From: Actinoplanes octamycinicus
Lineage (GTDB): Bacteria; Actinomycetota; Actinomycetes; Mycobacteriales; Micromonosporaceae
NCBI RefSeq assembly: GCF_014205225.1
Contig: NZ_JACHNB010000001.1
Location: forward strand, 5,685,501 to 5,749,500
Direction of reading: 5' to 3'
DNA: 64,000 bases
Shown here piece after piece: positions 8,913 to 48,103 of this stretch. Under the pieces are notes generated by a model that worked only from the letters and a program-made list of their open reading frames with translations, did not search any database and was not told the DNA's origin. Each line of letters starts with the position of its first letter. The stretch's first letter is position 1. Position numbers and translations under genes: made by a program.

Positions 8913-9574
8913 CGCCGGTCGTCGAGTTCGCCGGTGTGACCCGGGCCTATCCCGGCCCGCCGCCGGTGCAGGCGTTGCGCGCCGCCGACCTGGTCGTCGG
9001 CGCCGGCGAGTACGTGGCGGTGACCGGCCCGTCCGGCTCCGGCAAGTCCACCTTCCTCAACGTGGTCGGGCTGCTCGACCGGCCGACCGCCGGCGTGTAC
9101 CGCCTCGACGGCATCGACACCGCCACCCTGCCCGAGCGGGACCGGACCGCGCTGCGCGGCCGGCGCATCGGTTTCGTGTTCCAGTCGTTCCACCTGCTCC
9201 GGCACCGCTCGGTGGTGGAGAACGTGACGATGGCGATGGTCTACACCGGGGTGGCCAGGCCGGCCCGGGCCGGCCTGGCGCTGGAGACGCTGGAGCGGGT
9301 CGGGCTGACCCACCGCGCGCACGCTCGCGCCGGCCACCTCTCCGGCGGCGAGTCGCAGCGGGTGGCGATCGCCCGGGCCCTGGTGAACCGGCCGTCGCTG
9401 CTGCTCTGCGACGAGCCGACCGGCAACCTGGACAGCGCCAGCGCGGCCGCCGTGCTCGCCCTGATCGAGGAGCTGAACGACGGCGGCCTGACCGTGCTGA
9501 TGGTCACCCACGATCAGCAGGTGGCTGGCCGGGCGCACCGCTCGGTCCTGATCAAGGACGGGATCCTGCGGTGA
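8909..9574 (+). CDS. MacB/LolD-type ABC transporter ATPase
   Basis: This 221-residue ATPase has Walker A GPSGSGKSTF, Q-loop VFQSFHLL, signature LSGGESQRVAIARAL, Walker B LLLCDEPTGNLD and switch His VTHDQQ. The FQSFHLLRHRSVVENV region is typical of the MacB/LolD/FtsE class, which powers mechanotransmission rather than substrate passage. GTG 8909 overlaps the adaptor stop, and its stop overlaps the permease GTG at 9571, so all three parts are coupled. Confidence 0.93.
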   Translation: MTPVVEFAGVTRAYPGPPPVQALRAADLVVGAGEYVAVTGPSGSGKSTFLNVVGLLDRPTAGVYRLDGIDTATLPERDRTALRGRRIGFVFQSFHLLRHRSVVENVTMAMVYTGVARPARAGLALETLERVGLTHRAHARAGHLSGGESQRVAIARALVNRPSLLLCDEPTGNLDSASAAAVLALIEELNDGGLTVLMVTHDQQVAGRAHRSVLIKDGILR

Positions 9575-10806: not shown

Positions 10807-10817
10807 CCCGCGGACCT

Positions 10818-10930
10818 GGGCTGGTTGTCAGGGGTGCCTCAAGGCCCTTGAGGCACCCCTGACAACCAGCCCGTGCCGGGAGGCGCGCGGCGGTCCGCAG
10901 CCGGGATCGCCTCGCGTCCGGGGTGCCACG
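10818..10930. repeat. Dispersed palindromic element, copy 3 (core and right flank)
   Basis: The core is a perfect 27-bp inverted repeat (10818-10844 and 10846-10872) with a one-base centre, the same geometry as copy 1. The right flank keeps GCGCGGCGG followed 39 bp later by TGCCACG (10924-10930), as in copies 1 and 2. It directly follows the exporter operon and may serve as its terminator. The flank runs into a truncated NlpC/P60 gene. Confidence 0.75.
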
Positions 10931-11190
10931 ACTGCTCCGGGCTGCTCCACGCGGTCTTCCGCCGCCACGGCGTGCGGATCCCGCGCGACGCCCGGGACAT
11001 GGCCGGCGTCAGCGCCGGTCTGTCCGCCGCCGAGGCCCGGCCCGGTGACCTGGTGCCACTCACCAGGCCGGACACCGGCGTGCTCTACCACGTGGCGCTT
11101 GCCCTGGACCTGCCCCGGGCGCTCCACGTCTCCGAGCCGGACCGGGCCTGCGCCGACACCCGGCTCAGCGAGGCCCGGGAGGTCAGTTGA
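10916..11190 (+). pseudogene. NlpC/P60 (C40) peptidase, 5'-truncated remnant
   Basis: The open frame reads CHDCSGLLHAVFRRHGVRIP, then RDARDMAG, then EARPGDLVPL and YHVALALD. This is the catalytic half of an NlpC/P60 cell-wall peptidase, with the nucleophile Cys in DCSG and the His in YHVAL. Everything before the catalytic Cys (signal peptide and N-terminal domain) is absent, and the sequence runs directly into the right flank of the palindromic element. The 3' end overlaps the end of the chitosanase gene by 8 bp. It is probably non-functional, cut off by the repeat. Confidence 0.6.
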
Positions 11191-11980
11191 TGTGGAACGG
11201 GTCGCCGTAGACCTTGAAGTCGAGCGGGGTGTTCAGGTCGAAATTGCCGTTGTTCAGGAAAACGCGCTGGGCGGTGTCCACCCGTGAGGTGTCCGAATGC
11301 GCCTCCTCCTTCTTCATCTCGGCCACCCGCTCGTTCAGGAAAGTGTTCAGCCAGGTACGTTCGTCGCCGCCCTGGGCCGGCGGTTTCGCCTTGCGCAGGG
11401 CCCGGCTGCGAATGGCGCGCATCCCTTCGTAACCGTGCATCACCGCCGCGTCGTAATAGGCGAACTGGCCGAGCGCCCGTACCCCGTCCGCCTTTCCGTC
11501 GCGCACCGACGGGGTGAAGTAGACCCGGTCCCGTTCGGCCTCCTGAGCAGCCCGGAAGACCGGATCGGCGGCCGCCGTCCGCCAGTCCCGGGTGAAGTTC
11601 GGGTCGAGCCCGGAATGCGAATCCGTGCCGTTCACCCGGCGCAGCGCGGGCAGATACCGGGCGAGCACATTCGACGGTTTGGTGGCGGTGTACGCCTCGA
11701 CGAGGTCGAGCATGTCGCCGGTGCCGGAACAGAAACCGATGATGCCCGCGGTATATCCGCGGCCGTCGTCGATGTCCTCGATGTAGGCGAACTGCGCGCG
11801 CCAGTTCAGCGACGAGTTCTCGGCGGCCGAGACGATCTGCATGGCGACGTCTTTCTTCACCGGGTCGTCCAGGTTCTTCGGGGCGGTTCCGGCGCTGGCC
11901 GGCAGCAGCCCGACGGCCACGGCCAGGCCGGAGATGAGCAGGCCGATCGTGGCATAGGTGAGGGTTCTGGCGCGTTTCAT
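11183..11980 (-). CDS. csnA: Secreted GH46 chitosanase
   Basis: This 265-residue endo-chitosanase starts at ATG 11980, preceded by GGAGAG. A signal peptide runs to about residue 30 (LLISGLAVAVGLLPASA). The GH46 core follows: SAAENSSLNW carries the catalytic acid Glu54, and YIEDIDDGRGYTAGIIGFCSGTG carries Asp72. The 18-residue gap equals that between Glu22 and Asp40 of the Streptomyces N174 enzyme. ALGQFAYYDAAVMHG is the other signature. It hydrolyses beta-1,4-glucosamine links in chitosan outside the cell. It is divergent from the csnR-K operon, which should import the products. Confidence 0.93.
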   Translation of the reverse strand: MKRARTLTYATIGLLISGLAVAVGLLPASAGTAPKNLDDPVKKDVAMQIVSAAENSSLNWRAQFAYIEDIDDGRGYTAGIIGFCSGTGDMLDLVEAYTATKPSNVLARYLPALRRVNGTDSHSGLDPNFTRDWRTAAADPVFRAAQEAERDRVYFTPSVRDGKADGVRALGQFAYYDAAVMHGYEGMRAIRSRALRKAKPPAQGGDERTWLNTFLNERVAEMKKEEAHSDTSRVDTAQRVFLNNGNFDLNTPLDFKVYGDPFHIN

Positions 11981-29667: not shown

Positions 29668-29892
29668 TCAGTTCCGGTATCGGTAGAGGATCCGGCCTCG
29701 AGTCAGGTCGTAGGGCGAGACCTCCACGAGGACACGGTCGAAGGGGAGGATCTTGATGTAGTTCTTCCGGATCTTGCCGCTGATGTGGGCCAGGACCTGG
29801 TGACCATTGGGCAGGTCGACCCGGAAGGTGGCGTTGCGCAGGCACTCGACCACCGTGCCCTCCAGCTGGATGCCGCCGTTCTCCCTGGTCAT
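29668..29892 (-). CDS. infA: Translation initiation factor IF-1
   Basis: This 74-residue OB-fold protein has the IF-1 consensus in order: [37 protein letters not shown] and [23 protein letters not shown]-1 binds the ribosomal A-site region of 16S rRNA during initiation. It is not next to ribosomal-protein genes here. Its ATG overlaps the stop of an acetyltransferase gene by 4 bp, so this may be a second, specialised copy alongside the usual one in the ribosomal cluster. Confidence 0.92.
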
Positions 29893-30962
29893 CGCAGCAC
29901 CAGCTCGAGGTTGCTGCCGGCCCGCCGGGCGCCGACGCTCTCGAAGAGGGCGATCGCCGGGTGGTTGGCCTGGTGCACGTCCGCCGACGCGGTCGCGATG
30001 CCGCGCCGGTGGGCTGCGCCCAGCACCTCGGCCAGCAGCGCCCGGGCGATGCCCCGGCGACGCCGGTCGGCCCGGACCGCGATCAGCCCGATCCGCGGTT
30101 GCCGGGGGAGCGGTGCCACCCGGGCCAGCCCGACATACCGGCCGGCTTCGGCAGCCACCACGTACCGCGCCGGGTCCGGTGGCGGTGACAGCACCTCGGC
30201 CGGCATGTTCTGCCAGCCCAGCGTGGCCTCGACCTGGTCACGGATGACCTGGTCGAGTTCGCGGAGCGCTCCTGCCTCCGCCTGGCCGGCCGGCAGCACG
30301 GTGAGCCCGCCGAGCCGCGCGCCGGCGTTTCCCGGCGGTGTCGGGTTGTTTCCGGTGAGCCGTGGGTTGGTGGAAGGGGCGCTGTGCACCGGCGGTGGGG
30401 TCGGGTTGTGTCCGAGGAGGTGTGCGTCGGGTGGCGGGATGGTGGGAGCTGCCGGTGGCGATGGGGTGTGTCCGAGGAGGTGTGCGTCGGATGGCGGGAT
30501 GGTGGGAGTTGCCGGTGGCGGTGGGGTGTGTCCGAGGAGGTGTGTGTCGGGTGGCGGGATGGTGAGAGCCGCCGGTGGCGCCGGGTTGTGTTCGGTGGAC
30601 CGTGGGTCGGTGAGTGGGAGAGTGCGGGCCGGTGGGTTGGTGTCGAGGCCGGTGAGTTGTGGGTCGGTGGGCATGACGTATTCCCACTCTCGGCGGCGGG
30701 GGCCGAAACCGAGCTGTTCCCAGCTGGACAGCAGGTCCAGGTCGGCCTCGTCCACGACGGTGTAGAGCGGCCGGGGCAGCCGGGTCAGCATGGCCTCGGC
30801 CAGCTGGTCGAAGACGCTGTCGTGCCAGGCGTCGATGCTGAGGAAGCGGCGGCCGTCGGGCCGGTGGGTGACCTCGCCGCGGCCGACCACCCGGTCGTCG
30901 TCCAGAGCGTGCCAGTGCCGCTCGGAGACCTGGGTGACCGCGGTCAGAAATGCGGATTCCAT
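29889..30962 (-). CDS. GNAT-family acetyltransferase with repeat-built linker
   Basis: The protein has 357 residues. The N-terminal ~105 residues ([42 protein letters not shown]) resemble a degenerate GNAT half. Residues about 110-240 are a proline-rich tract of 20-residue repeats ([20 protein letters not shown]). The C-terminal ~130 residues are a full GNAT domain with [21 protein letters not shown] (acetyl-CoA loop) and [17 protein letters not shown] 30962 is preceded by GGAAAGG. Translationally coupled to infA by a 4-bp overlap. The substrate is unknown; a translation-related target would fit the coupling but is speculative. Confidence 0.82.
30400..30600. repeat. 60-bp coding minisatellite in the acetyltransferase
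   Basis: Three near-identical 60-bp units (TGTGCGTCGGRTGGCGGGAT starts at 30421, 30481 and 30541) are flanked by degenerate partial units. The period is exactly 20 codons. On the minus strand they encode the proline-rich linker repeats. Confidence 0.9.
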
Positions 30963-31162
30963 GGTGGTGTCGCCTTTCCGGAGAACCTGGATGCGGCGCT
31001 CCGAGGCGACACCTACGTCAGGTCGCCGAACCGTGACGACGAGGGGAGCACCCACATCGAAACATCGTTCACGGTGCTCACCCCCTCAAGTCGTGCCACG
31101 GCCGACGGCAGGCTATCCGCGCGCCGCCCCACCCGTCCAACCATTTATCGAGAAGGCCATGC

Positions 31163-35651: not shown

Positions 35652-36309
35652 GGAGGAGACCGAGACCGCCGAGGCGGAACACCTGATGGGCTGTGCCGGC
35701 TGCCGGCACGACTTCGAGGCGCTGCGGACGGTGGCCGACCTCGGCGCGCAGGCCGAGGAGCTGCGTGACCTGCCGCCCCCGCCGGAGCGGATCTGGCACG
35801 CCATCGAGGCGGACATCGCCGGCCCGGCGCCCCGGCCGGCCCCGGTGATCGATCTGGCCGGCCGGCGGAGCCGGCTCCGCCGGATGCTGCCGGTCCTCGC
35901 CGCGGCCGCGGCCGTGGTGCTGGCGGTGGCCGGCACGGTGGTCGTCGACCGGTTCGTGTCCCGGCCCCCGGCCAAGCAGGTGGCGGCCCGGGCGACGCTC
36001 AGCCCGCTGCCCACCGTCCCGGCGTCGGCCGGCGGCAGTGTGACGGTGCTGACCGACGGCGACATGCGCATCGACGTGCGCAACCTGCCGCTGACCACCG
36101 GCTTCCACGAGGTCTGGCTGATCGACCCGGACGACCTGACGAAGATGGTGGCGCTCGGCAACCTGACCGATCGGGCGGACGCGGTGCTGCCGGTGCCGCC
36201 GGGCACCGACCTGAACCGGTACCGCCTGGTCGACATCAGCGACGAGCCGCACGACGGCGACGCCGCGCACTCCGGCCGCAGCCTGCTCCGCGGCACCCTC
36301 ACCAACTAG
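35605..36309 (+). CDS. RskA-type anti-sigma factor
   Basis: This 234-residue protein has a cytoplasmic N-terminal zinc-binding anti-sigma domain with EHLMGCAGC (HxxxCxxC), one membrane helix at about residues 95-115 (MLPVLAAAAAVVLAVAGTVVV) and an extracytoplasmic RskA C-terminal domain (FHEVWLIDPDDLTKMVALGNL, YRLVDISDEPHDG). It should hold the sigma factor inactive until regulated proteolysis. GTG 35605 lies within the sigma gene, so the two are coupled. Confidence 0.92.
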   Translation: MQHLDPDRLVLLALSEEETETAEAEHLMGCAGCRHDFEALRTVADLGAQAEELRDLPPPPERIWHAIEADIAGPAPRPAPVIDLAGRRSRLRRMLPVLAAAAAVVLAVAGTVVVDRFVSRPPAKQVAARATLSPLPTVPASAGGSVTVLTDGDMRIDVRNLPLTTGFHEVWLIDPDDLTKMVALGNLTDRADAVLPVPPGTDLNRYRLVDISDEPHDGDAAHSGRSLLRGTLTN

Positions 36310-36328
36310 GTGCCGGAATCGGCCATCC

Positions 36329-36366
36329 GACCGGCCACCCCGGACAGATCGTCGGGGTGGCCGGTC
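36329..36366 (+). terminator. Terminator after sigma/anti-sigma operon
   Basis: GACCGGCCACCCC (36329-36341) and GGGGTGGCCGGTC (36354-36366) form a 13-bp perfect stem with a 12-base loop, 19 bp after the anti-sigma stop and ahead of the grpE-type promoter. Confidence 0.75.
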
Positions 36367-36406
36367 GGGCCGTTTCCGGTACTGCATTCCGGGCGGTAGC
36401 GCTCAG

Positions 36407-36412
36407 TAATCT
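36407..36412 (+). promoter_or_regulatory. Probable -10 of the GrpE-Hsp70 operon
   Basis: TAATCT lies 66 bp before the preferred GTG start (36478) and 8 bp before an alternative GTG (36421). It follows the upstream terminator and is the first good -10 match in the gap. No clear -35, and no HspR (HAIR) or CIRCE-type inverted repeat, is visible, so classical heat-shock control is not indicated. Confidence 0.4.
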
Positions 36413-36477
36413 GTCCGTCAGTGACCAGTGACATCGGTGCGAGTCGAGATCCGGTTGCCGGCGACAGGGAGGCGCGT

Positions 36478-37014
36478 GTGACCACGCCCGAGGAGACCAT
36501 CACAGAGGACGCGGACGTTGGCGAGGCGCCGGACGCCCTGGCGGAGATCCGGGCCAGGCTCGACGGGCTGGCCGGGTACGTGGAGAAGGCCGACGAGTTC
36601 CGCCGGCTACGCGAGCGGGACGCCGAGTTCGTCGATCAGCTGCACCGGGAGAATGACGAACTCCGCAAGGACCAGCTCACCCAGGCGATGTGGCCGCTGT
36701 TCCAGGGCTACATCAAACTCTACGACCTGATGACGGCGGCCCCGGCCGGCGACGAGACGACGCCGATGCTGATCCGCCAACTGGTGCAGATCCTCGACAT
36801 GAACGGCGTCACCGTCTACGAGCCGGAGCCCGGGGAGACCTTCGACGGTCAGTGGCAGGAGGGCATCCCCGTCGACACTGTCGAGCCGGACGCTGCCGGG
36901 ACGATCGCCTGCTTGCGCAGGGCCGGCTTCCGGCGCTCCACAACGGTGCTCCGCGTCGCCCAGGTGGAGGTGTATCGCCTGGCCCGACCAGCGGATTCGG
37001 CGACAGCTCAGTAG
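36478..37014 (+). CDS. grpE: GrpE-like nucleotide-exchange factor
   Basis: This protein of about 178 residues has an N-terminal acidic tail and a long coiled helix (VEKADEFRRLRERDAEFVDQLHRENDEL). A compact domain follows that matches the GrpE core in outline (AMWPLFQGYIKLYDLM, IRQLVQILDMNGVTVYEPEPGETFDG, GFRRSTTVLRVAQVEVYRL). GrpE releases ADP from Hsp70. GTG 36478 has a strong ribosome site (AGGGAGG, 5 bp spacer). GTG 36421, 8 bp after a -10, would give a leaderless form 19 residues longer. It is divergent in sequence from housekeeping GrpE and sits 6 bp before the Hsp70 gene. Confidence 0.8.
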   Translation: MTTPEETITEDADVGEAPDALAEIRARLDGLAGYVEKADEFRRLRERDAEFVDQLHRENDELRKDQLTQAMWPLFQGYIKLYDLMTAAPAGDETTPMLIRQLVQILDMNGVTVYEPEPGETFDGQWQEGIPVDTVEPDAAGTIACLRRAGFRRSTTVLRVAQVEVYRLARPADSATAQ

Positions 37015-37020
37015 CGGCTC

Positions 37021-38697
37021 ATGGAGATCAGTGTGGGCAAAGTCTTCGGCATCGACCTGGGCACCACCTATTCGTGTATCGCGGCCATGGACAAGTGGGG
37101 TCGTCCCGTCGTCTACAACAACCGGGACAACCAGGCGACGACGCCGTCCGTGGTGCGGTTCACCGAGGACAACGAGGTGGTGGTCGGTCTCCAGGCGAAA
37201 CGCAGTGCCCTGGTGCACCCGGACGAGGTGGCCAGCGTCGTCAAACGGAAGATGGGTGATCCCGACTGGCGGTTCCGCGCCTGGGGCACGGATTACGCCG
37301 CTCCGTCGATCTCCAGCCAGGTGCTCAAGAGCCTGGCTCGCGACGTGGCGGAGCAGGATCAGAGCGGTGCCACCGTCACCGAGGTGGTCATCACGGTGCC
37401 GGCCTATACCGGGCACGAGTTCCGCGAAGCCACCAAGTTCGCGGGTGAACTGGCCGGGCTGAAGGTCATCGACATCATCAACGAGCCGACCGCCGCGGCC
37501 TTCGCTTACGGATTCCTCCAGGAGGGGAACACCGCACAGACTGTCCTGGTCTATGACCTGGGCGGCGGCACGTTCGACGTCACCGTGATCCGTCTGGCGG
37601 AGAAGAAAATCCAGGTGGTCGCCACCGACGGCGACCCCAAGCTTGGTGGCGTCGACTGGGACGAGGCGATCGCGGCGTTCCTGGCTGACAGGTTCGCCGA
37701 GATCCATCCGGACGCGAGACGACCCTCCGACAGTGCCGTGGGCTCCCAGCACCTGATGAACCTGGCCGAGGAGGTGAAACAGTCGCTGAGTCAGCGAAGT
37801 TCGTACCTCGCCGTGGTGCAGCACGACGGGGTGCAGGCCGAGATCACGATGACCCGTGACGAGTTGGAGGAACTCACCGCGGGCCTGCTGCACCGCACCA
37901 TCGACTTGACGCGCCGGGTCCTGGAGAAAGCCGCGACGAAGGGCGTGACCGCCGTCGACCAGATCCTGCTGGTCGGTGGCATGAGCAAGAGCCCGGCGGT
38001 GAAACAACGCATCCAGGCGGAATTCGGGATCGACACCAGGCTCACCGACCCGGACCTGGCGGTGGCCAAAGGCGCGGCGATCTTCGGGCAGAAGCGTGAG
38101 CTGGAGAGCTATGTGTTGGAGAGCCTTCGCAGCCGTGGCGCGCTGACCGAGGACGAGCAACTGGAGGACGCCGATCCGGCCACGCTGGCGGAGGTGCTCC
38201 GGGTCACGGCCGATGAGCGCGCCATGGGCCGCGAGGAGGTCGGTGACCTGGTGGCCACCCAGATCAGCAACGTCACCAGCCGTGGTTTCGGGGTGCAGGT
38301 GCTCGACCGGAAAAGCGGCGAGCACCGCGTGGAGTTCCTCGCGCACGCGCAGGACGAGCTGCCGATCAGCGTCGAGCAACAGTTCTACACCTCGGCCGAC
38401 AACCAGACCGCCGTGCTGATCAAGGTGTTCGAGCAGAACAGCGGGGACGAGTCGCAGGGCCTCGACGCCAATACCGCGATCATCAGCGGTGAGATCACCG
38501 GAGTTCCGCACGGATGGCCGAAGGACACGCCGGTCGATGTGCGGCTGGACATGGGCACCGACCAGGTGATCACGGTGACCGCTCGCCACCGCGCGGTCAA
38601 CGAGCCGCTGGTGCTGACGATCAAGGTCGGCGCCGCGTCTGCGGCGATGCGGGAGGTCGAGCGCGCCAAGGTCGACGAGCTGAAGCAACGCGAGTGA
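37021..38697 (+). CDS. Hsp70 (DnaK) paralogue lacking the C-terminal lid
   Basis: The 558-residue Hsp70 has an intact ATPase domain: GIDLGTTYSCIA (phosphate 1), IINEPTAAAFAYG (connect 1), VYDLGGGTFDVTVI (phosphate 2, about 177-190) and LLVGGMSKSPAVKQRI (adenosine, about 316-331). A substrate-binding beta region follows (NVTSRGFGVQVLD, TSADNQTAVLIKVFEQ, LVLTIKVG). The chain ends soon after, at VERAKVDELKQRE, without most of the helical lid and flexible tail of normal DnaK (about 610-640 residues). Its partner is probably the GrpE-like protein encoded just before it. Its stop overlaps the next start. Confidence 0.9.
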   Translation: MEISVGKVFGIDLGTTYSCIAAMDKWGRPVVYNNRDNQATTPSVVRFTEDNEVVVGLQAKRSALVHPDEVASVVKRKMGDPDWRFRAWGTDYAAPSISSQVLKSLARDVAEQDQSGATVTEVVITVPAYTGHEFREATKFAGELAGLKVIDIINEPTAAAFAYGFLQEGNTAQTVLVYDLGGGTFDVTVIRLAEKKIQVVATDGDPKLGGVDWDEAIAAFLADRFAEIHPDARRPSDSAVGSQHLMNLAEEVKQSLSQRSSYLAVVQHDGVQAEITMTRDELEELTAGLLHRTIDLTRRVLEKAATKGVTAVDQILLVGGMSKSPAVKQRIQAEFGIDTRLTDPDLAVAKGAAIFGQKRELESYVLESLRSRGALTEDEQLEDADPATLAEVLRVTADERAMGREEVGDLVATQISNVTSRGFGVQVLDRKSGEHRVEFLAHAQDELPISVEQQFYTSADNQTAVLIKVFEQNSGDESQGLDANTAIISGEITGVPHGWPKDTPVDVRLDMGTDQVITVTARHRAVNEPLVLTIKVGAASAAMREVERAKVDELKQRE

Positions 38698-41600
38698 TGA
38701 GGTTCGACCCCGAGGACTATCGCGCCCGGGTGCTCTCTCGGCTGCAGCGGGACGGCACGTTGGCCGATCCGCAGGACGGCGACCCCTTCCTGGTCTGCGC
38801 GATCAGCCTGGACGCGACGACGAAAGAGGTCGCCGAGGGTCTGGACCACATCGTGGCCTTCTGGCGGAAGGAGGAGACCAAGTTCGCCTACCGCGTGGTC
38901 ACCGGCGAGCTGCTGAGGAACCAGGAAGCCTACCGGCGGCTTCTCGGTCCGGCCGCTAGCCGAGTCGGCGCGGCGGCCCGGGTGCGGCAGCGGCGAGCGG
39001 CAGAGGACCAGGCGGCGCGAGCCGAGCTGGACCGGCTCGCCGGCCTGCTGCGCAAGGAGCACGGAGCGCTCCACCGGGACAAGGTGAAGGTCCTCGAATC
39101 GATAGCCATCGAGGAGGGCATGAGCCGGTCGGGGTTCGCGACGTGGTTGTCCCGGCAATCGGTGGCCGACCGCCTGCCGGCCGCCCAGCCCTGGGACACG
39201 ATGGTGCGCCGACGGATCCGGTCCGCCCTGGACGAGCTGGCCCGCATCGACAAGCCGCGGGCCGGACGTTACCGGACCCTGTTCACCTTTCTCGCTGTTC
39301 CGTCGGCGCCGTCCCGCGCGGCGCTGGAGGCGGCGCACGAGGAGTTGTCGCGTCAGCGGCTCTCGATGGTGCGGGAGACACCGATCGCGACCCGGACCCA
39401 CGACGTTCTCACCGAGGTCAAGCTGCGGCTGCTGGTCGACGGTGGCATCGAGAGATATGCGGCCAGCGTTCGCGCCGACGCTCAGGACATGCTCGCCACC
39501 GAGTTGCGCCGCCGGGCGAAGCTCACCGGGGTACTGCACGCGGACGAGGTGGAGGCGATGGTCGGCCGGATCGTCCAGCTGCGATGGGGGATCGAGCAGG
39601 ACGAAGCGACCAGTCTGGTCCGAGCGGCCGCAGCCGCCGAGAAACTCGCGGTCGAGGTGAACATCGCGGTGCGGCTGATCGTGTGCGGCGCCTGCGGACG
39701 ACCGCAGACAGCCGACGGGCAGGACACCTGCGTGTACTGCGCCGAGCTGCTGTACGTCGGCTGCCTGGCCTGCGGCGAGTCGATCCCGCGGGCCGCCGAG
39801 ATCTGCCCGCGCTGCACCGCCCCGATAGCCGCACTGCGCCTGGCCGAGACCATCGCGCCGGCGCTTCGTCAGGCCCTCGACGAGGGGCGGGCGGCTCAGG
39901 CATACCGGCTGGCGTTGGATATCAACCCGCTCAGGGATCATCCGGCGGCCTCCCGCGGCCTGGTCGCGCTGATCGCGGAGGCGGAGCAGCGCCACGCCGA
40001 AGCAGGCCGGCGCTGGACCGCCCTGCTTGCCGACATCCGGCGCGGCGCCTGGTGGAGTGCGATGACCGCGGCCCAGTGGCTGACCACGCAGGCCGGCGAC
40101 GTCGTCTCGCCGGAACCCGCGTCGCCGTGGTCCGCCGCCGCCCGGCTGAAGCAGATCGAGGAGGCTCAGCGCGCGGCGATCACCGCGGTCCGGCGGGCCG
40201 CGGCGCTCCCGGCCGAGTCCAGGGAGGAGGAGCTGCAGCGGCTGCTGACGGCCAACCCGGACTGCCCGGAGGCGATCGACGCGCTGGCCAGGATTCCGCT
40301 GCGCCCGCCGGAGAGCCCGGAGCTGGTGGTCACCGAGGACGCCGCGCAGCTGTCCTGGCGTCCGGTCCGCGGCGCGTCGCCGGACGTCGTTTACCACGTG
40401 CAGCGGCACGTCGAGTGGCCGGAGCATCTCGCCGAAGTGACGTCGGTGGGCCGGACCAAGAGTACGCGGGTGCGGGACGCGTGCGCGCCGGGCGGGACGG
40501 TCGTGCGGTACACAGTCACCGCGGCCGACGGTGATCGGGTCTCACCGAGCGTCGACGTCGGGTCGTCCTGGTTCGTGACCCGCGATGTGCTGCTGGTGCA
40601 CGCCACGGCGGTCGGGCGGCGTGCCGTCCAGCTGGAGTGGCCGCCTGAGTACCTGGGGGCCGCGGAGGTGCTGGTCGAGCGCCGGTTGGACGCGGAGACC
40701 GACGGTGGCGGGCCGGTCAAACGGTTCCGGCCGGCGGCCGCCGGCCGGTACTTCGACGAAACCGTGGAGCTCGGCGTGGCGTACCGGTACCGGGTTTGTC
40801 TGGCCTACCGCGACCGGGTGGGCACGGTGACCCGGACGGCTGGCCGGGAGGCCGTGATGACCGTCCATCCGGCGCCGGAGCCGGTGCGTGAGCTGCGGGT
40901 GGTCACCGGCGGCGACGGGCGGACCGTGATCTCTTACGACAGCCCGCCGGCCGGCACGGTGCGGGTCTACGCGACCGCCGGCACCAGGCCCCCGGAGGGC
41001 CGCACGCTGCGTCAACTCGAGGCATCCGGCGCCCGCCCGGTCGGCGAGGGTGCTGAGCAGGTCGTCGACGACTCCGGGCGCGGCCTGGTGACCTACCGGG
41101 CGGTGACGGTGTCCGGGCCGGATATCGCGCTCGGGGCGTACCTCACGCACGTGGCGGCCGAGACGCCCGGCCGGCTGCGGGTGATCGACGACAGCGATGG
41201 CCGGCTGCGGCTCGGCTTCGACTGGCCGGTCGGCGTATCCACGGCCGTGGTGCGGTGGAGCCGGCTCGGCCCGCCCGGCGAAGGGGCCGATCAGGCCACG
41301 GTGACCGCCGCACAGCTGGCGGGCGACGGCTATCCGATCGAGGTGCCCGCCGACGGTCGGGCGGTGCACGTGGCCGTGCACGCGGCGATACCGTCCGGCG
41401 GTTGGCCGGTGGTCGCGTCGGCCGGCGCGACCATGCTGGCCCGGCCCGCGGTGCCGCTGGTCGTGCGCTACTCGGTGAACGTGCGGAGGTTCCTCGGCCC
41501 GCGGGTTGACATCGACGTCAGCACGGCGGGCGGGGGCCCGCTGCCGGCCGTCGTCGTGGTGCTGCGGGGCGACGGCGAGCCGGCCGGGCCGGACGACGGC

Positions 41601-41762
41601 GTGACCGTCTGCTCGTACCCCGGTGGCAGCTCCAGCGTGGAACTGCAGATCAAACGGGCCGATCTGGTCGATGGGCACCTGCGGCTGTTCGCCCGGCCGG
41701 AGCCCGGCTTCGTGGTGGAGGTCCAAGACCCGCCGCTGACCAGCCGGCGGGTAGTGCTGTGA
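38697..41762 (+). CDS. Large Hsp70-associated protein with two zinc ribbons and Fn3-like repeats
   Basis: The protein has about 1021 residues, no signal peptide and no membrane helix. Residues 1-325 are helical. Segments at about 29-85 (DPFLVCAISLDATTKEVAEGL) and 194-245 (FLAVPSAPSRAALEAAHEEL) faintly recall J-domain spacing but lack HPD. Residues 330-373 hold two zinc ribbons: C330/C333/C345/C348 and C356/C359/C370/C373. Residues about 380-530 are TPR-like helices, and about 537-1021 are a run of beta-sandwich segments, of which the first (537-620) and second (630-725) look like fibronectin type III. ATG 38697 overlaps the Hsp70 stop by one base; GTG 38694 is an alternative. It may be a client adaptor or J-like co-chaperone. 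I know no characterised homologue. Confidence 0.8.
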   Translation: MRFDPEDYRARVLSRLQRDGTLADPQDGDPFLVCAISLDATTKEVAEGLDHIVAFWRKEETKFAYRVVTGELLRNQEAYRRLLGPAASRVGAAARVRQRRAAEDQAARAELDRLAGLLRKEHGALHRDKVKVLESIAIEEGMSRSGFATWLSRQSVADRLPAAQPWDTMVRRRIRSALDELARIDKPRAGRYRTLFTFLAVPSAPSRAALEAAHEELSRQRLSMVRETPIATRTHDVLTEVKLRLLVDGGIERYAASVRADAQDMLATELRRRAKLTGVLHADEVEAMVGRIVQLRWGIEQDEATSLVRAAAAAEKLAVEVNIAVRLIVCGACGRPQTADGQDTCVYCAELLYVGCLACGESIPRAAEICPRCTAPIAALRLAETIAPALRQALDEGRAAQAYRLALDINPLRDHPAASRGLVALIAEAEQRHAEAGRRWTALLADIRRGAWWSAMTAAQWLTTQAGDVVSPEPASPWSAAARLKQIEEAQRAAITAVRRAAALPAESREEELQRLLTANPDCPEAIDALARIPLRPPESPELVVTEDAAQLSWRPVRGASPDVVYHVQRHVEWPEHLAEVTSVGRTKSTRVRDACAPGGTVVRYTVTAADGDRVSPSVDVGSSWFVTRDVLLVHATAVGRRAVQLEWPPEYLGAAEVLVERRLDAETDGGGPVKRFRPAAAGRYFDETVELGVAYRYRVCLAYRDRVGTVTRTAGREAVMTVHPAPEPVRELRVVTGGDGRTVISYDSPPAGTVRVYATAGTRPPEGRTLRQLEASGARPVGEGAEQVVDDSGRGLVTYRAVTVSGPDIALGAYLTHVAAETPGRLRVIDDSDGRLRLGFDWPVGVSTAVVRWSRLGPPGEGADQATVTAAQLAGDGYPIEVPADGRAVHVAVHAAIPSGGWPVVASAGATMLARPAVPLVVRYSVNVRRFLGPRVDIDVSTAGGGPLPAVVVVLRGDGEPAGPDDGVTVCSYPGGSSSVELQIKRADLVDGHLRLFARPEPGFVVEVQDPPLTSRRVVL

Positions 41763-41802
41763 CGGCCTCGGCTCCGGTGGTGCCGGGCCGGGGCCGTCGT
41801 GA

Positions 41803-42834
41803 TCAGGCGGGCCGGCGCCGGTGGGACGGGTCGAGCGCCGGCGGCTGGTAGCCCTGGTCGCGGGCGGACAGCGTGACACCCGGCGGCACGATCTTGTCGA
41901 TCTCGTCGAGGACGTCCGGGGTGAGCCGGGTCTGCGCCGCGTCGAGCTGACTTTCCAGCTGCTCGAAGGTGCGCGGCCCGATGATCGGCGCGGTCACCGC
42001 CGGGTGTTCCAGCACGAACGCCAGCGCCAGGTGGATCAGCGAGATCCCGGCCTGGTCGGCCAGCTGGGCGAGGGCCTCGACGGCGTCCAGCTTGGCGGCG
42101 TTCTCCGGCGCGTCGATCTGGAAGCGTCCGGGCTGGTGGGCGCCGCGGCTGGTGGGCGGCTGGGCCCCGCCCTTGCGGAACTTCCCGGTCAGCCAGCCGC
42201 CGGCGAGCGGGCTCCACGGGATCACCGCGAGGCCGTACTTCTGGGCGATCGGCAGCACCTCGCGTTCCACGCCGCGGGCCAGGATCGAGTACGGCGGCTG
42301 CTCGGAGACCACCCGCTCCCGGCCCCGGCGCTCGGCGAGCCACTGGCCCTCGACGATCGCGGACGGCGGGAACGTGGACGTACCGAAATATCTGATCTTG
42401 CCGTGCCGGACCAGATCGGACAGCGCGCCGAGAGTCTCGTCGAAATCCGTGTCCGGCTCCGGCCGGTGCACCTGGTAGAGGTCGAGGTGGTCGGTCCGCA
42501 GCCGGCGCAGGCTGTCCTCCACCGCGCGGATGATCCACCGGCGCGAGTTGCCGGCGTGGTTCGGGTCGTCGCCGATCTGACCGTGGAACTTGGTGGCCAG
42601 GAAGACGTCGTCGCGCCGGCCCTCCAGGGCCTTGCCGACGATCGTCTCCGACTCACCCTGGCTGTAGACGTCGGCGGTGTCGATCAGGTTGATCCCGGCG
42701 TCCAGCGCCCGGTGGATGATCCGGATGCTGTCGTCGTGGTCGGGGTTGCCGCGCGGGCCGAACATCATGGTGCCCAGCGCCAGCGCGCTGACCTTGACGC
42801 CGGTCCGGCCGAACGGCCGCAGCGGGATGCTCAC
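41803..42834 (-). CDS. Aldo/keto reductase
   Basis: This 343-residue NADPH-dependent reductase has the catalytic tetrad in [12 protein letters not shown] (Asp, Tyr), ATKFHG (Lys) and YQVHRPEP (His), plus [14 protein letters not shown] cofactor binding at the C-terminus ([18 protein letters not shown]). The start is GTG 42834, overlapping the monooxygenase stop by 4 bp. As the last gene of the flavin-monooxygenase operon it probably reduces the aldehyde released by desulfonation or a related cleavage. Confidence 0.9.
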
Positions 42835-44159
42835 TGGCTGATCAGCTCCAGACGGTCGGCGGGGCGGGGGAGTCCGTAGTGCTCGCGCAGCGTGGTGCCG
42901 GTGTACTCGGTGCGGAACAGGCCGCGCTCCTGCAGGATCGGCACCACCTTGGTGGCGAACGCCTCGATGCCGGAGGGCAGCACGGCCGGCATGATGTTGA
43001 AGCCGTCCGCGGCGCCGTTCTCGAAGTAGTGCTGGATGGTGTCGGCGATCTGCACCGGGGTGCCGGTGAAGGTGCGGTGCCCGCGGCCGCCGCCGAGCTT
43101 GCCGATCAGCTGGCGCACGGTCAGGTTCTCCCGCCGGCCCCAGTTCACGATCAGCGTGTACCGGCTCTTCATCCCCTCGATCTCGTCCTCGTCCGGCAGG
43201 TCGGCGGGCAGCGGCTCGTCCAGCCTGAGCCGCTCGCGGTCGATCCGCAGGATCGTGGCGAGCTGGGCGAGCGCGTGCTCGGGCGAGATCAGCCGCTCCA
43301 GCTCGGCGTCCAGCTCGCGGGCCTCGGCCTCGGTGTCGCCGATCACCGGGACGATGCCGGGCAGGATGACCACCTGCTCCGGGTCCCGGCCGGCGGCCAC
43401 CACCCGGCGCTTGAGGTCGGCGTAGAAGGCCTGGCTCTCGGCCAGCGTGGGCTGCGCGGTGAAGACCGCCTCGGCCCACTTCGCGGCGAAGTCCTTGCCG
43501 TCCTCCGAGGAGCCGGCCTGCACCAGCAGCGGGTGCGCCTGCGGCGAGCGGGGCACGTTCAGCGGACCCTCGACCCGGAAGTGCACGCCGTGGTGGCCGA
43601 TCGCCCGGATCCGGTCGCCGTCCGCGTGGATGCCCGACTCCTTGTCCGCCAGGATCGCGTCGTCGGCCCAGCTGTCCCAGAGCTTCGTGGAGACCTCGAG
43701 GAACTCGTCGGCCCGGTCGTACCGGCTCCGGTGCAGCGGCTGGTCCTGCAGGCCGAAGTTGCGCGCGGCCGCCTCACCGGCGGTGGTGACGATGTTCCAG
43801 CCGGCCCGGCCGCCGGACAGGTGGTCCAGCGAGGCGAACCGCCGGGCCAGGTTGTACGGGTCGTTGTAGGAGGTGGAGGCGGTCGCGATCAGCCCGATCC
43901 GGCTGGTGGTCACGGCGAGCGCGGCCAGCAGCACGGTCGGCTCCAGCTTGCCGGACGGGCGGCGACCCGGCTCGCTGAACAACGCCGGCCCGTCGGCCAG
44001 GAAGACCGAGTCGAACTTGGCGTCCTCGGCCACCCGGGCCAGGTGCTGGTGGGCGGCGAGCGACAGGTTGGCGTGCGGGTCCGATTCGGGCAGCCGCCAG
44101 GACGCCTCGTGGTGGCCGGTGTCGTGCAGGAACAGGTTGAAGTGGAGTTGCCGGGTCAT
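42831..44159 (-). CDS. Flavin-dependent (LLM, NtaA/SnaA/DszA-type) monooxygenase 2
   Basis: This 442-residue bacterial-luciferase-like enzyme contains [67 protein letters not shown] and [18 protein letters not shown], all typical of the FMN-dependent NtaA/SnaA/DszA group. These use FMNH2 from a separate reductase to oxidise sulfur or nitrogen heterocycles and related compounds. It is a close paralogue of the next gene upstream, with long identical blocks. ATG 44159 overlaps its neighbour's stop. A longer open frame to 45425 is a shadow of that neighbour. Confidence 0.9.
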
Positions 44160-45481
44160 CGAACGCTCGTCTCCAGGTGATTGATGGGGCGTGGCAGGCC
44201 GTAGTGGTCCCGCAGGGTGGTGCCGTCGTACTCGGTCCGGAACCGGCCCCGCTCCTGCAGGATCGGCACGACCTTGTCGACGAAGGCGGTCAGGCCGGAC
44301 GGCAGCACCGCCGGCATGATGTTGAAACCGTCCGCGGCGCCGTTGTCGCACCACTCCTCGATCGCGTCGGCGACCTGGACCGGGGTGCCGGCGAAGGTGC
44401 GGTGGCCGCGACCGCCGCCGAGGCGGCCGATCAGCTGGCGGACGGTCAGGTTCTCCCGCCGGGCCAGGTCGACGATCAGGGTGTACCGGCTCTTGGCGCC
44501 CTCGATCTCGTCCTCCGCCGGCAGGTCGTCCGGCAGCGGCTGGTCCAGGTCGAGGTCGTCCGGGTCGAGCTGGAAACGCTCGGCCAGCTGCCGTTTCGCG
44601 TACTCCGGGCTGATCAGCCGCTCCAGCTCGGCGTCCAGCTCGCGGGCCTCGGCCTCGGTGTCGCCGATCACCGGCACGATGCCGGGAAGGATCTTGATGC
44701 CGTCCGGGTCGCGGCCCAGCGCGGCGGCCCGTTCCTTCAGGTCGCGGTAGAACGCCTGCGCCTCGGCCAGGGTCTGCTGGGCGGTGAAGACCGCCTCGGC
44801 CCAGCGCGCGGCGAACTCCTTGCCGTCCTCGGAGGAGCCCGCCTGCACCAGCAGCGGGTAGCCCTGCGGCGAACGCGGCACGTTGAGCGGCCCGTCCACC
44901 CGGAAGAACCGGCCGCGGTGGTGGATCGCGCGCACCTTCTCGGCGTCGGCGTGCACCCCGGCCGCCTTGTCGGCGAGCACCGCGTCGTCCGCCCACGAGT
45001 CCCACAGTTTCGTGGCCACCTCGAGAAATTCGCCGGCCCGCGCGTAGCGCTCGGCGTGCAGCGGCACGTCGTCCAGGCCGAAGTTGCGGGCCGCGTCGGC
45101 GCCGGCCGTGGTGACGATGTTCCATCCGGCCCGGCCGCCGGACACGTGGTCGACCGAGGCGAACCGGCGGGCCAGGTTGTACGGCTCGTTGTACGACGTC
45201 GACGCGGTGGCGATCAGCCCGATGTGCTCGGTGACCGCGGCGATCGCGGTGAGCAGCACGGTCGGCTCCAACCGGCCGGCCGGGCGGCGTCCCGGGTGAC
45301 CCTGCAGCACCGGGCTGTCGGCGAAGAAGATCGAGTCGAGCTTGCCGCGCTCGGCGATCCGGGCCAGCTCCTGGAAGTGCCGGACGTCCCAGCTGGCGTA
45401 CGGATCGCTCTCCGGCAGCCGCCACGACGCCTCGTGGTGCCCGACACCCATCAGGAACGCGTTCAGATGAAGACGGCTCAC
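44156..45481 (-). CDS. Flavin-dependent (LLM, NtaA/SnaA/DszA-type) monooxygenase 1
   Basis: The protein has 441 residues with the same fold and landmarks as its downstream paralogue ([51 protein letters not shown]). The FMN/substrate loops differ, for example IFFADSPVLQGHP in place of [13 protein letters not shown], suggesting two substrates or two steps. GTG 45481 overlaps the ATPase stop by 4 bp. It should receive FMNH2 from the flavin reductase encoded at the head of the operon. Confidence 0.9.
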   Translation of the reverse strand: MSRLHLNAFLMGVGHHEASWRLPESDPYASWDVRHFQELARIAERGKLDSIFFADSPVLQGHPGRRPAGRLEPTVLLTAIAAVTEHIGLIATASTSYNEPYNLARRFASVDHVSGGRAGWNIVTTAGADAARNFGLDDVPLHAERYARAGEFLEVATKLWDSWADDAVLADKAAGVHADAEKVRAIHHRGRFFRVDGPLNVPRSPQGYPLLVQAGSSEDGKEFAARWAEAVFTAQQTLAEAQAFYRDLKERAAALGRDPDGIKILPGIVPVIGDTEAEARELDAELERLISPEYAKRQLAERFQLDPDDLDLDQPLPDDLPAEDEIEGAKSRYTLIVDLARRENLTVRQLIGRLGGGRGHRTFAGTPVQVADAIEEWCDNGAADGFNIMPAVLPSGLTAFVDKVVPILQERGRFRTEYDGTTLRDHYGLPRPINHLETSVR

Positions 45482-46218
45482 CGGCGGCTCTCCTCGTCGA
45501 CGCCCAACTCGTCCAGCAGGAAGGTGCGCAGCTCGGCGAAGGCCGGGGCGGACCGGGACCGGTCGGCGAGCTCCACCCGGACGTCGGTGCGGACCACGCC
45601 GCCGTCCAGCAGGATCACCCGGTCGGCCAGCACGATCGCCTCGTCCACGTCGTGGGTGACCAGCAGCACCGCCGGCCGGTGCGTCTCGCACAGCTTGCGC
45701 AGCAGGGCGTGCATCTTGATCCGGGTGAGCGCGTCGAGCGCGCCGAACGGCTCGTCGGCCAGCAGCAGCTGCGGCTCCCGGACCAGCGACCGGGCCAGCG
45801 AGGCACGCTGCTGCTCGCCGCCGGAGAGCTGGTAAGGCCAGGCCCGTTCCCGGCCGGCCAGGCCGACCTCGGCGAGCGCCTGCCGGCCCCGCTCGGCGGC
45901 GCCCGGGCCGCGCAGCCCGAAGGTGACGTTGTCCAGGATCCGTTTCCAGGGCAGCAGCCGGGAGTCCTGGAAAACCACCGACACCGAGCCGGGCACCGCG
46001 ATCCGGCCGTGGCCGGCCACGTCGCGGTCCAGCCCGGCCAGGGCGCGCAGCAGGGTGCTCTTGCCGGTGCCGGAGCGCCCGATCAGCGCCACGAACTCGC
46101 CGGCCGCGATGTCCAGGTCGAGCCCGTTGAGCACGCCGCCGTTCCTGCTGAAGCTGCGGTGCAGGTTGCGGACCCGGACGGCCGGCTCGGTGATCAGTCC
46201 TCCAGCGTTCGCCGCCAC
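45478..46218 (-). CDS. SsuB/TauB-type ABC transporter ATPase
   Basis: This 246-residue ATPase has Walker A GRSGTGKSTLL, Q-loop VFQDSRLLPW, signature LSGGEQQRASLARSL, Walker B LLLADEPFGALD and VTHDVDEA. The RLLPWK segment is typical of the sulfonate/nitrate/taurine group. GTG 46218 overlaps the permease gene by 25 bp and is the first start in this frame outside that gene's core. It energises uptake by the neighbouring permease. Confidence 0.92.
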   Translation of the reverse strand: MAANAGGLITEPAVRVRNLHRSFSRNGGVLNGLDLDIAAGEFVALIGRSGTGKSTLLRALAGLDRDVAGHGRIAVPGSVSVVFQDSRLLPWKRILDNVTFGLRGPGAAERGRQALAEVGLAGRERAWPYQLSGGEQQRASLARSLVREPQLLLADEPFGALDALTRIKMHALLRKLCETHRPAVLLVTHDVDEAIVLADRVILLDGGVVRTDVRVELADRSRSAPAFAELRTFLLDELGVDEESRR

Positions 46219-47039
46219 GACAGCACCTTCCTCCCGGTGAAGCGGACCGCGGTGTCGGCGAGGTAGCCGAAGACTCCGTAGATGACCAGGCCGACCACGA
46301 TCACGTCGGTCTGGCCGTACTGCCCGGCGAGCGTCATCATGTGGCCGATCCCGCTGGTCGCGTTGTACTGCTCGACCACCACCAGGCCGAGCAGCGACGA
46401 GGTGACCGCGAACCGCATGCCGAGCAGGAAGCCGGGCAACGCGCCGGGCAGCACGATGTGCCGGATGAACTCGGCGCGGCCGATCCCGATGGTCTCGGCC
46501 AGCTCGGCGTACTTGCCGTCGATGCTGCGCAGGCCGTTGTGCGTGTGCACGTAGATCGGGACCAGGCTGATCAGCGCGATGGTCACCACCTTCATCTCCT
46601 GGTCGATGCCGAACCAGGCGATGAACAGCGGGATCAGGGCCAGCGTGGGGATCGAGCGCTTGATCTGGATGGGTCCGTCGAACACCGATTCGCCGATCCG
46701 GGACAGCCCGGAGACCAGCGCCAGCAGGACCCCGCCCAGCACCCCGAAGGCCAGGCCGAGCACGGCCCGGTTCAGCGAGGAGAGGATGTTGCCGAGCAGG
46801 TCGTGCTCGGCCCACTGGTTCTGGAAGGCGGCCACCACGTCCCACGGCGCGGTCAGGATCGCCGGGCTGATCACACCGGCGGCCGAGCCGGCCGCCCAGA
46901 TGGCCAGCACCAGCAGCGGGCCCACCCAGAAGGCGAACCGGATCCGCCGGCCCGGCCCGAGCCGGCGCCGGACCACCCGCTCGTCGACCGTGTCGCCGGG
47001 GTCGGTGACCCGCTGCTCGACGTGCACCGTGGCGGTCAT
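46194..47039 (-). CDS. SsuC/TauC-type ABC transporter permease
   Basis: This 281-residue permease has about six helices (FWVGPLLVLAIWAAGSAAG, AVLGLAFGVLGGVLLALVSG) and the EAA loop YAELAETIGIGRAEFIRHIVLPGALPGFLLGMRFAV, as in sulfonate permeases. It overlaps both the binding-protein gene (4 bp) and the ATPase gene. Confidence 0.92.
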   Translation of the reverse strand: MTATVHVEQRVTDPGDTVDERVVRRRLGPGRRIRFAFWVGPLLVLAIWAAGSAAGVISPAILTAPWDVVAAFQNQWAEHDLLGNILSSLNRAVLGLAFGVLGGVLLALVSGLSRIGESVFDGPIQIKRSIPTLALIPLFIAWFGIDQEMKVVTIALISLVPIYVHTHNGLRSIDGKYAELAETIGIGRAEFIRHIVLPGALPGFLLGMRFAVTSSLLGLVVVEQYNATSGIGHMMTLAGQYGQTDVIVVGLVIYGVFGYLADTAVRFTGRKVLSWRRTLED

Positions 47040-48103
47040 GCGGCATCACCGGTGACCACCTGGGAACCGGCCGCGGCCGTCTCCACCGGCTCGAACCGGC
47101 GGTCGACCAGCGTGGTCACGTCGAGCTTGTCGTGCTTCTGCTCGGTGGCCAGCAGGTCGGCGCTCTCCTGCAGGCGGGTGATCGCGTTGTCCCAGCTGGC
47201 CGGGATGGCCTTGTCGCCGTAGAGCTCGACGACCGCCTTGGCGTCGGCCGGGGTGAGGCCCTGGCTGTCGACGTAGTACAGCTTGGCGTACTCGTCGGGG
47301 TGGGTGTTCTGCCAGAGCAGCGCCTTGGTGCGGACGCTGACGTAGACCTTCAGCGCGGCCGCCTTGGCCGCGTCCTGGACCGACTTGGTGAGGCAGTACA
47401 CCGTGGCCGCGTCGTCCCGGATGCCGGTGTCGATCGCGCCGGCCCCCGGGTACTTCGCCTCGTAGATCTTGACGTTCTGCGCGCCGAGCGGGGCCACGTC
47501 GACCGCCTTGGTGCCGAGCGCGGTCACGTACGAGTCGCCGGTGCTGGTCAGCTCGACCAGCTGGACGTCCTTCTGGGACAGCCCGGCTTTCTGCAGCACC
47601 CGGAGCACCAGCGCGCCCTGCGCCTGCCCGGCGCTGTAGGCGATCTTCTTGCCGCGCAGGTCGGCCAGGGAGGTCACGGACACCCCGGGCGCCACGCCGA
47701 GCTTGTAGATCGGGTGCTGGAGCGGGTCTGCGCCGACCGACTGGAACACGATCTTGGTGGAGGTGCCAGTCCAAGCGGCGAAGAGTGACGGGATGTCGGC
47801 GACCGAGCTGCAGTCCAGCTTGTCGGCGCGGAACGCCTGGATGCTCTGCGGGCCGCCGCTGATGTTGGCCCACTCGACCTTCACCCCGGCGGCGGTCAGC
47901 TCCTTGTCCAGGCCGGCGGCGCCGAGCACGGCCTGGACGGCCGGGTCGCCGATCCGGAGGACGGTGCCGCTGGGCACCTGCTCCGGCAGCGCGGCGCTCA
48001 ACTCGAGGGTGGCGGCGGGATCGTCGTTTCCGCAGGCGGCGGTGCCGATGGCCAGGACCGCGGCCAGTACGGCGGCGGCCGCCTTTCGGGGGGTCATGAT
48101 CAT
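47036..48103 (-). CDS. SsuA-type substrate-binding lipoprotein
   Basis: This 355-residue protein has a lipoprotein signal (VLAAVLAIGTAAC) and an NMT1/SsuA-like body: LRIGDPAVQAVLGAAGLDKEL, VEWANISGGPQSIQAFRADKLDCSSVADIPSLFAAW and YKLGVAPGVSVTSLADLRGKKIAYSAG. This family binds aliphatic sulfonates, taurine and similar compounds. ATG 48103 is preceded by AGGA; an in-frame ATG lies two codons later. It is 30 bp downstream of the flavin reductase gene. Confidence 0.9.
   Translation of the reverse strand: MIMTPRKAAAAVLAAVLAIGTAACGNDDPAATLELSAALPEQVPSGTVLRIGDPAVQAVLGAAGLDKELTAAGVKVEWANISGGPQSIQAFRADKLDCSSVADIPSLFAAWTGTSTKIVFQSVGADPLQHPIYKLGVAPGVSVTSLADLRGKKIAYSAGQAQGALVLRVLQKAGLSQKDVQLVELTSTGDSYVTALGTKAVDVAPLGAQNVKIYEAKYPGAGAIDTGIRDDAATVYCLTKSVQDAAKAAALKVYVSVRTKALLWQNTHPDEYAKLYYVDSQGLTPADAKAVVELYGDKAIPASWDNAITRLQESADLLATEQKHDKLDVTTLVDRRFEPVETAAAGSQVVTGDAA

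Follow-up and report, generated by a model that had tools for sequence, protein, structure and literature searches.

GAP1-N2 type DO-GTPase conflict systems were described by Kaur, Burroughs, Iyer and Aravind (2020; PMC7159879), and according to that paper about 14% of GAP1-N2 neighbourhoods contain an Hsp70 and a GrpE, with an Fn3 protein that is 'typically fused' to DnaJ or TPR. Current Hsp70 models centre on the linker and on the contact between an arginine of the ATPase domain and the aspartate of HPD; the arginine is called key and the HPD of the J-domain invariant, and the simulated variants included R167D (PMC7289447). Ter systems are presented elsewhere as sensing and signalling systems directed against phages and xenobiotics (PMC7824862). 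Here, a three-gene unit was analysed in a 64,000-nucleotide stretch of Actinoplanes octamycinicus DNA (the window), which encodes a GrpE-like protein, an Hsp70 and a large protein of 1021 residues. The trio is a real, conserved and rewired Hsp70 unit; it looks closer to a dedicated molecular switch than to a general protein-folding machine, and a switch function is likely. It was read, with slightly better than even confidence, as a form of the Hsp70-GrpE-Fn3 module known from actinobacterial conflict or stress systems that stands alone and acts as a dedicated switch. Among the top papers listed from one open-licence library, none dealt with an Hsp70-GrpE-Fn3 trio that stands alone, with its loss of Arg167 or with its link to Ter genes; an earlier mention is possible.

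The genes lie on the forward strand in the order GrpE-like, Hsp70, large protein:

36478..37014, + strand: gene for a divergent GrpE-like nucleotide-exchange factor; 178 aa when read from its likely GTG (PF01025, E 2.9e-10)
37021..38697, + strand: lidless Hsp70 gene, 558 aa (PF00012, E 4e-90)
38697..41762, + strand: large scaffold protein gene, 1021 aa (from the open reading frame (ORF), Pfam, an AlphaFold2 model and structure comparison)

The ORF coordinates agree with the layout given in the original prediction, with a 6-base spacing between the grpE-like stop (37014) and the Hsp70 start (37021) and a large-gene ATG (38697) that shares 1 base with the Hsp70 stop. The GrpE had been called divergent, and its PF01025 match was indeed confined to the C-terminal half. 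NCBIfam matches of the trio were all below the NCBIfam cut-offs.

A public collection of named genomes was scanned with an alignment of five large proteins, yielding 69 loci: 30 from Nocardia, 13 from Pseudonocardia, 9 from Geodermatophilaceae, 4 each from Nocardioides and Gordonia, 3 each from Tsukamurella and Frankia, 2 from Virgisporangium and one from an unplaced metagenome-assembled genome (MAG). Because 43 of these are Nocardia or Pseudonocardia loci, the counts are not independent, and two pairs come from the same genomes (L023/L034 and L024/L044; apparently also L089/L100). A window-type Hsp70 was the next gene upstream of the large protein in 69/69 loci (cut or split in L068 and L080); since the loci were found through the large protein, they are uninformative on how often such an Hsp70 occurs without it. 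grpE lay beside the Hsp70 in 52/69 loci, on the opposite strand in 51 and co-directional in 1. In the remaining 17 it was not found even with a family profile; one of these (L068) is cut by a contig end, leaving 16 real misses at this sensitivity. The window gene order with grpE recurs in the near relatives L025 (a Geodermatophilaceae MAG), L096 and L097, of which the last two carry the zinc ribbon described below and the L025 contig ends before its place. In L097 (G228; 7884-11661) the Hsp70 and large protein were in several reading frames as fetched. This neighbour listing bears out the proposal of a dedicated unit.

Two full DnaK genes are present in the A. octamycinicus genome (one contig, 10.28 Mb), and a DnaJ-domain gene lies no more than about 1 kb from each of them. 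Four other places in the genome are Hsp70-like. Three DnaJ-domain genes were found in the genome, all away from the trio. Two objections had been foreseen, that the large protein occurs mostly without the Hsp70 gene and that this gene is simply the only dnaK with a mis-called 3' end. Neither holds, because the Hsp70 is upstream in every locus and two further full DnaKs exist.

Alignment with DnaKs also upheld the claim that the Hsp70 ends after the beta substrate-binding region. Its best PF00012 stretch covers the ATPase domain (residues 8-356), it shares 35% and 37% identity with the two DnaKs encoded in the same genome, and its C-terminus lies about 20 residues past the beta substrate-binding part, so that the alpha-helical lid is missing. 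A set of 72 family Hsp70s (67 of the 69 loci, L020, L021, L023, L024 and the window, with two genomes counted twice) proved near-equal in length, with 553-582 residues from just before the ATPase signature, which makes a mis-called 3' end unlikely. The canonical linker is affected as well:

38089..38280, + strand: Hsp70 interdomain insert, about residues 357-420, between the ATPase and beta substrate-binding domains

In alignment with DnaK, this insert of about 63 residues, ending SRGFG, replaces the canonical VLLLDVTPLSLG linker. By scripted measurement its length is 62-63 residues in 66/72 members and 18-115 in the other 6. The ATPase motifs are retained, as judged by eye. Asp151 (37471-37473), the residue before IINEPTAA, occupies the DnaK Arg167 position (E. 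coli DnaK numbering). Across the 72 proteins this position is Gly in 38, Asp in 34 and Arg in none, and 6/6 compared DnaKs retain both Arg167 and the canonical linker. When 29 Hsp70s were placed in a tree, those from trios (19 rows) formed one clade (support 95/91), apart from the six DnaKs, which formed another group, as did the three rows from GAP1-N2 systems. The window, L025 and L096 Hsp70s made a subclade (99/99). The tree program warned of long branches meeting elsewhere in this tree.

The large protein was divided as follows:

38697..39176, + strand: helical module 1, with the family motif HP[KR][YF] replaced by KFAY at residues 62-65 (AlphaFold2 and family alignment)
39189..39671, + strand: helical module 2, whose family profile weakly resembles a J-domain; HPD absent (AlphaFold2 and hhalign)
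39672..39824, + strand: double zinc ribbon, four CxxC (sequence; Pfam DZR E 4.2e-4, below the Pfam cut-off)
39807..40289, + strand: TPR-like helical region (our own reading of the AlphaFold2 helix pattern; weak TPR matches)
40290..41762, + strand: run of Fn3-like domains (AlphaFold2 and structure comparison)

The eight paired cysteines and beta-sandwich run that had been noted correspond to the four CxxC (residues 330/333, 345/348, 356/359 and 370/373) and to Fn3-like domains in the predicted structure. In the models the Fn3 assignment is solid: about four domains align to a four-domain fibronectin fragment, with the last part at low confidence. Fn3 matches filled the fold-search lists for the protein, masking its helical half. 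The window model (mean predicted local distance difference test score, pLDDT, 77.5) and that of the Nocardia relative L038 (90.6) are alike in having two helical modules, a region read as TPR-like and Fn3-like domains, and the window model differs from L038 in its zinc ribbon and longer Fn3 run. Individual TPR models gave weak matches in 2-3 of 42 family members. The module 1 motif was compared in 73 proteins and is HPKY in 65, HPRY in 4 and HPKF in 3; the window protein alone is without it.

The original prediction had the large protein replace the J-protein, the lid or both. That it could stand in for a J-protein is consistent with module 2, which alone matches a J-domain profile, although the match is weak and the HPD is missing. 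With hhalign against a profile built on 22 J-domains that came from other loci, module 2 reached 52-56% probability, in register up to the HPD. Sliding windows, rather than column shuffles, were taken as the control: of 33 windows of the family, only three, over module 2, exceeded 2%. Column shuffles of module 2 exceeded the real score in 1/60 and 4/150 cases, at about 130, a control spoilt by gap columns; the other 146/150 reached at most 15.4, compared with 24.9 for the real alignment. At the HPD place the family has PPG, RPD, PPD and others (HPD in 0/58 of the proteins with the REL landmark; 73 in total), and no HPD occurs anywhere in the large protein of the window. DnaJ did not appear among the 25 of 34 Pfam families listed for 42 members. 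A duplication relating modules 1 and 2 was tried with hhalign and rejected (0.5-2.1% only).

In the proposed mechanism, the Hsp70 would be an ATP-driven conformational switch with the large Fn3 scaffold as its single, dedicated partner. By binding the Hsp70, the helical N-terminal half of the scaffold would take the role that an ordinary J-protein with HPD has elsewhere. Ligand binding or the assembly of a complex would fall to the Fn3 array and zinc ribbon of the scaffold, and resetting of the switch to GrpE. Protein-protein binding, ATP hydrolysis by the window Hsp70 and a stress or anti-invader output would all be part of this picture. A more specific version, held only tentatively, is a different interdomain relay, in which the circuit of Arg167, linker and HPD has been replaced and the chaperone turned into a dedicated two-protein switch. 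Its elements are Gly or Asp at position 167, the insert of about 63 residues, the lack of a lid, and a partner with HP[K/R][Y/F] (lost in the window) or the J-remnant PPx/RPD. The partner has HPK or HPR in 32/34 cases with an Asp-type Hsp70, and a reversed charge pair of Asp and HPK/HPR is possible if module 1 sits at the J-domain position. A clade without Arg167 and the linker, yet with ATPase motifs, one fixed partner and mostly a GrpE, amounts to a natural experiment on the requirements of an Hsp70.

The unit had been proposed as an undescribed system. This part of the proposal was not sustained: an Hsp70/GrpE/Fn3 module homologous to the trio is described inside GAP1-N2 GTPase systems (PMC7159879), and homology extends to the N-terminal half of the large protein. 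GAP1-N2 was found in 11/121 genomes of the order, and 13 loci were fetched, two of which (L116 and L117) are of the Hsp70 theme, with Hsp70, Fn3 genes, GTPase and GAP1; a GrpE-like gene was seen in L116. The 11 GAP1-N2 genomes and the 9 genomes with trio matches do not overlap (121 genomes of the order in two draws, apparently the same genomes). The Hsp70s of L116 and L117 are also without Arg167, and the two full-length ones are without the lid and canonical linker. Aligned by hhalign with the Fn3 component of L116/L117, the N-terminal half of the large protein scored 92% over 174 columns with a two-sequence profile. With a single sequence the score was 23%, a level far from that of the controls, as none of 150 decoy ORFs exceeded 0.8% and none of 40 letter shuffles 0.9%. 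On these alignments the N-terminal half is detectably homologous to the GAP1-N2 Fn3 component.

GAP1-N2 (PF20013) had no match in the A. octamycinicus genome. Neither a 14-domain GAP1-N2 profile nor a 7-sequence DO-GTPase profile found a match in the window or the 69 loci. The former recovers 13/13 positive loci, all in its training set (1/13 with a single-sequence query), and the latter 13/13 GAP1-N2 loci, including several that did not contribute to the profile (11/13 with a single query). With homologous parts and no GTPase or GAP1 in the 69 loci or the window, the trio is therefore the same kind of module without its GTPase part.

Side observations were made in the GAP1-N2 loci. A second Hsp70, cut by the fetched edge with its ATPase part seen, is present at L116:15662-19501 and L117:3-1085, and in L116 it comes after a large P-loop gene that is FtsK/HerA-like by eye. 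In a genus relative (G026; L016:3383-9851), a weak CHAT match (E 0.0031, below the Pfam cut-off; caspase-like by eye) is fused to a related Fn3 region and followed by DO-GTPase2 and GAP1-N2/GAP1-M genes, giving a GAP1-N2 system in the genus of the window.

Strict anti-phage action, in the mode that Kaur et al. proposed for GAP1-N2 systems, could draw on the homology of the Hsp70, GrpE and Fn3 components to those systems and on the CHAT-like protein with its related Fn3 region adjoining DO-GTPase and GAP1-N2 in L016. It was nevertheless judged improbable. Models of PADLOC-DB gave only a chance-level TIR match for the GrpE (E 0.019) and none for the Hsp70 or large protein, and no effector domain was recognised in the three proteins by the Pfam, NCBIfam and PADLOC scans. 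The lack of GTPase and GAP1 in the 69 loci also speaks against it, as does inheritance that looks vertical in several genera.

Stability of the site was assessed from flanking ORF families. At least two families were common to 229/231 pairs among 22 of the 30 Nocardia loci and to 36/36 pairs among 9 of the 13 Pseudonocardia loci; these loci were hand-picked for long flanks, and shadow ORFs inflate the pair counts. The shared flanks indicate that the trio is stable in both genera. Upstream of the window trio a sigma/anti-sigma pair is conserved in relatives, and the trio was not beside this pair in 7/7 fetched relatives; because the flanks differ, there is no clean insertion site. The window ORFs that were read revealed no transposase-like gene next to the trio. 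With the full-length large protein as query, 60 genomes of the genus yielded the copy in the window and a single divergent partial relative (29% identity, residues 513-970, Fn3 part only), so the trio is rare in this genus. The first 400 residues of the large protein match 3/150 genomes of the family, and the first 333 residues of a Nocardia relative match 9/121 genomes of the order, two only in short stretches (own genome included in both counts). One record of a plasmid collection matches the large protein. A single-sequence scan of a general genome contig collection with the large protein, and a scan of a viral contig collection with the Hsp70, gave no match.

These data bear on the idea of a client-specific housekeeping chaperone, which would fold or assemble one protein complex and be unconnected with either stress or invaders. 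The stable sites within genera, the genes recognised by eye as infB- and rbfA-like in the Nocardia flanks and the absence of a noticed transposase suit it. The patchy spread, with one divergent Fn3-part match in the 59 other genus genomes and the 9/121 genomes of the order, the homology to conflict-system components and the Ter genes near the trio in several families do not, and this explanation is considered unlikely.

The clusters of the Ter-dependent stress response were reportedly set out by Anantharaman et al. in 2012. By hand count, a TerD-, TerC- or Ter-biosynthesis-like gene lay within the fetched flank in 22/69 loci: 11/13 from Pseudonocardia, 4/4 from Gordonia, 6/9 from Geodermatophilaceae and 1/3 from Frankia, the Frankia match (L066) being weak and distant. 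None was found in the fetched flanks of Nocardia, Nocardioides, Tsukamurella, Virgisporangium or the unplaced MAG; the flank often stops at 9 kb or where the contig does, so missing Ter genes may be located beyond it. TerD, TerC, C-C lyase, PRTase-TRSP and StiP-Pelota occur together in 10/69 loci. In L096 one strand carries TerD, TerC/DUF475, TerD-like, GrpE, Hsp70, scaffold, C-C lyase, PRTase-TRSP, StiP-Pelota and HAD-like genes (TerD-like and HAD-like are our own assignments, for which Pfam had no match there). Ter genes are also near the trio in L097, which like L096 is a close relative of the window trio. Their placement varies by family (divergent upstream, co-directional upstream or downstream), a difference that speaks against inheritance of a single ancestral site as the sole explanation.

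Several results weigh against a stand-alone conflict or stress module. The window itself has no GAP1, no DO-GTPase and, at E 1e-8, no Ter gene. The Nocardia trio occupies a stable site near its infB- and rbfA-like genes without Ter, which fits a housekeeping job equally well. Module 1 was considered as a J-domain from its helix layout and HPKY; Pfam (42 members), hhalign against the 22 J-domains (0.3%) and a PDB-sequence profile search (best match E 0.012, a capsid/protein A fusion) were unsupportive, and the idea was left as speculation. The J-likeness of module 2 found no support outside hhalign, in Pfam or in the PDB-sequence search (one chance-level match, E 3). Finally, the window Hsp70 branch is long (0.76) and the HP[KR] motif is lost, so the window copy may have drifted in function. 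These last two traits would also suit a decaying relic in the A. octamycinicus genome. The three intact frames, the tight spacing and the retention of the ATPase motifs and all four CxxC make decay very improbable.

Around the trio, the start of grpE is probably GTG 36478 rather than GTG 36421 (197 aa from the latter), as judged from an AGGGAGG upstream and from the L096 homologue, which likewise begins VTTPEE. As the original prediction had it, no HAIR or CIRCE element was matched in the window at up to 3 mismatches, with the DnaJ-domain genes lying elsewhere in the genome. A pattern scan from 36200 to 42000 reported no sigma-70-like promoter. One further element was read from the sequence:

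36327..36368, strand not assigned: perfect 16-bp inverted repeat with a 10-nt loop and no T-run

It sits between an upstream anti-sigma-like gene and grpE, was not reported by the pattern scan of the stretch, and is possibly the end of the upstream transcript. Elsewhere in the window, a short repeated unit (30384-30687) lies within an acetyltransferase-like gene (29889-31055, - strand) and is visible in the translations of both strands, and two adjacent similar luciferase-like monooxygenase genes occur with ABC-transporter genes and a substrate-binding protein at 42831-48103 (names by eye).

Among known systems, the DnaK-DnaJ-GrpE machine has in common with the trio an Hsp70 ATPase domain with its motifs, a beta substrate-binding part and GrpE; the trio differs in having no lid, no Arg167 and no HPD J-protein in the unit, and in the insert that takes the place of the linker. 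A Rhodococcus pseudokoreensis plasmid cluster (L022:1-16588, NZ_CP070617.1), in which TnsA/TniB/TniQ-type transposition genes precede those for an Hsp70, a TPR protein, GrpE and FtsK/SpoIIIE, is possibly carried by a Tn7-like element. It resembles the trio in its accessory Hsp70, GrpE and TPR protein, whereas its Hsp70 has Arg167 and, although its branch is long, clusters with the DnaKs, and FtsK/SpoIIIE and transposition genes are nearby. The Hsp70/GrpE theme of GAP1-N2 systems has Hsp70, GrpE, an Fn3-repeat protein and the homologous N-terminal half in common with the trio. Set against it, the trio is without DO-GTPase and GAP1-N2, its window type carries a double zinc ribbon, and Ter genes lie near its relatives. 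As to a DnaJ or TPR fusion of the kind typical of the GAP1-N2 Fn3 protein, what was seen is the weak hhalign match of module 2 to J-domains and helices in the models that may be TPR-like. With Ter clusters, the L096, L097, most Pseudonocardia and all Gordonia trios are linked by lying in or beside at least one of the TerD, TerC, PRTase, StiP and C-C lyase genes, none of which the window has. The trio thus connects the Hsp70/Fn3 module of predicted conflict systems with Ter stress clusters and provides a testable genetic handle for both.

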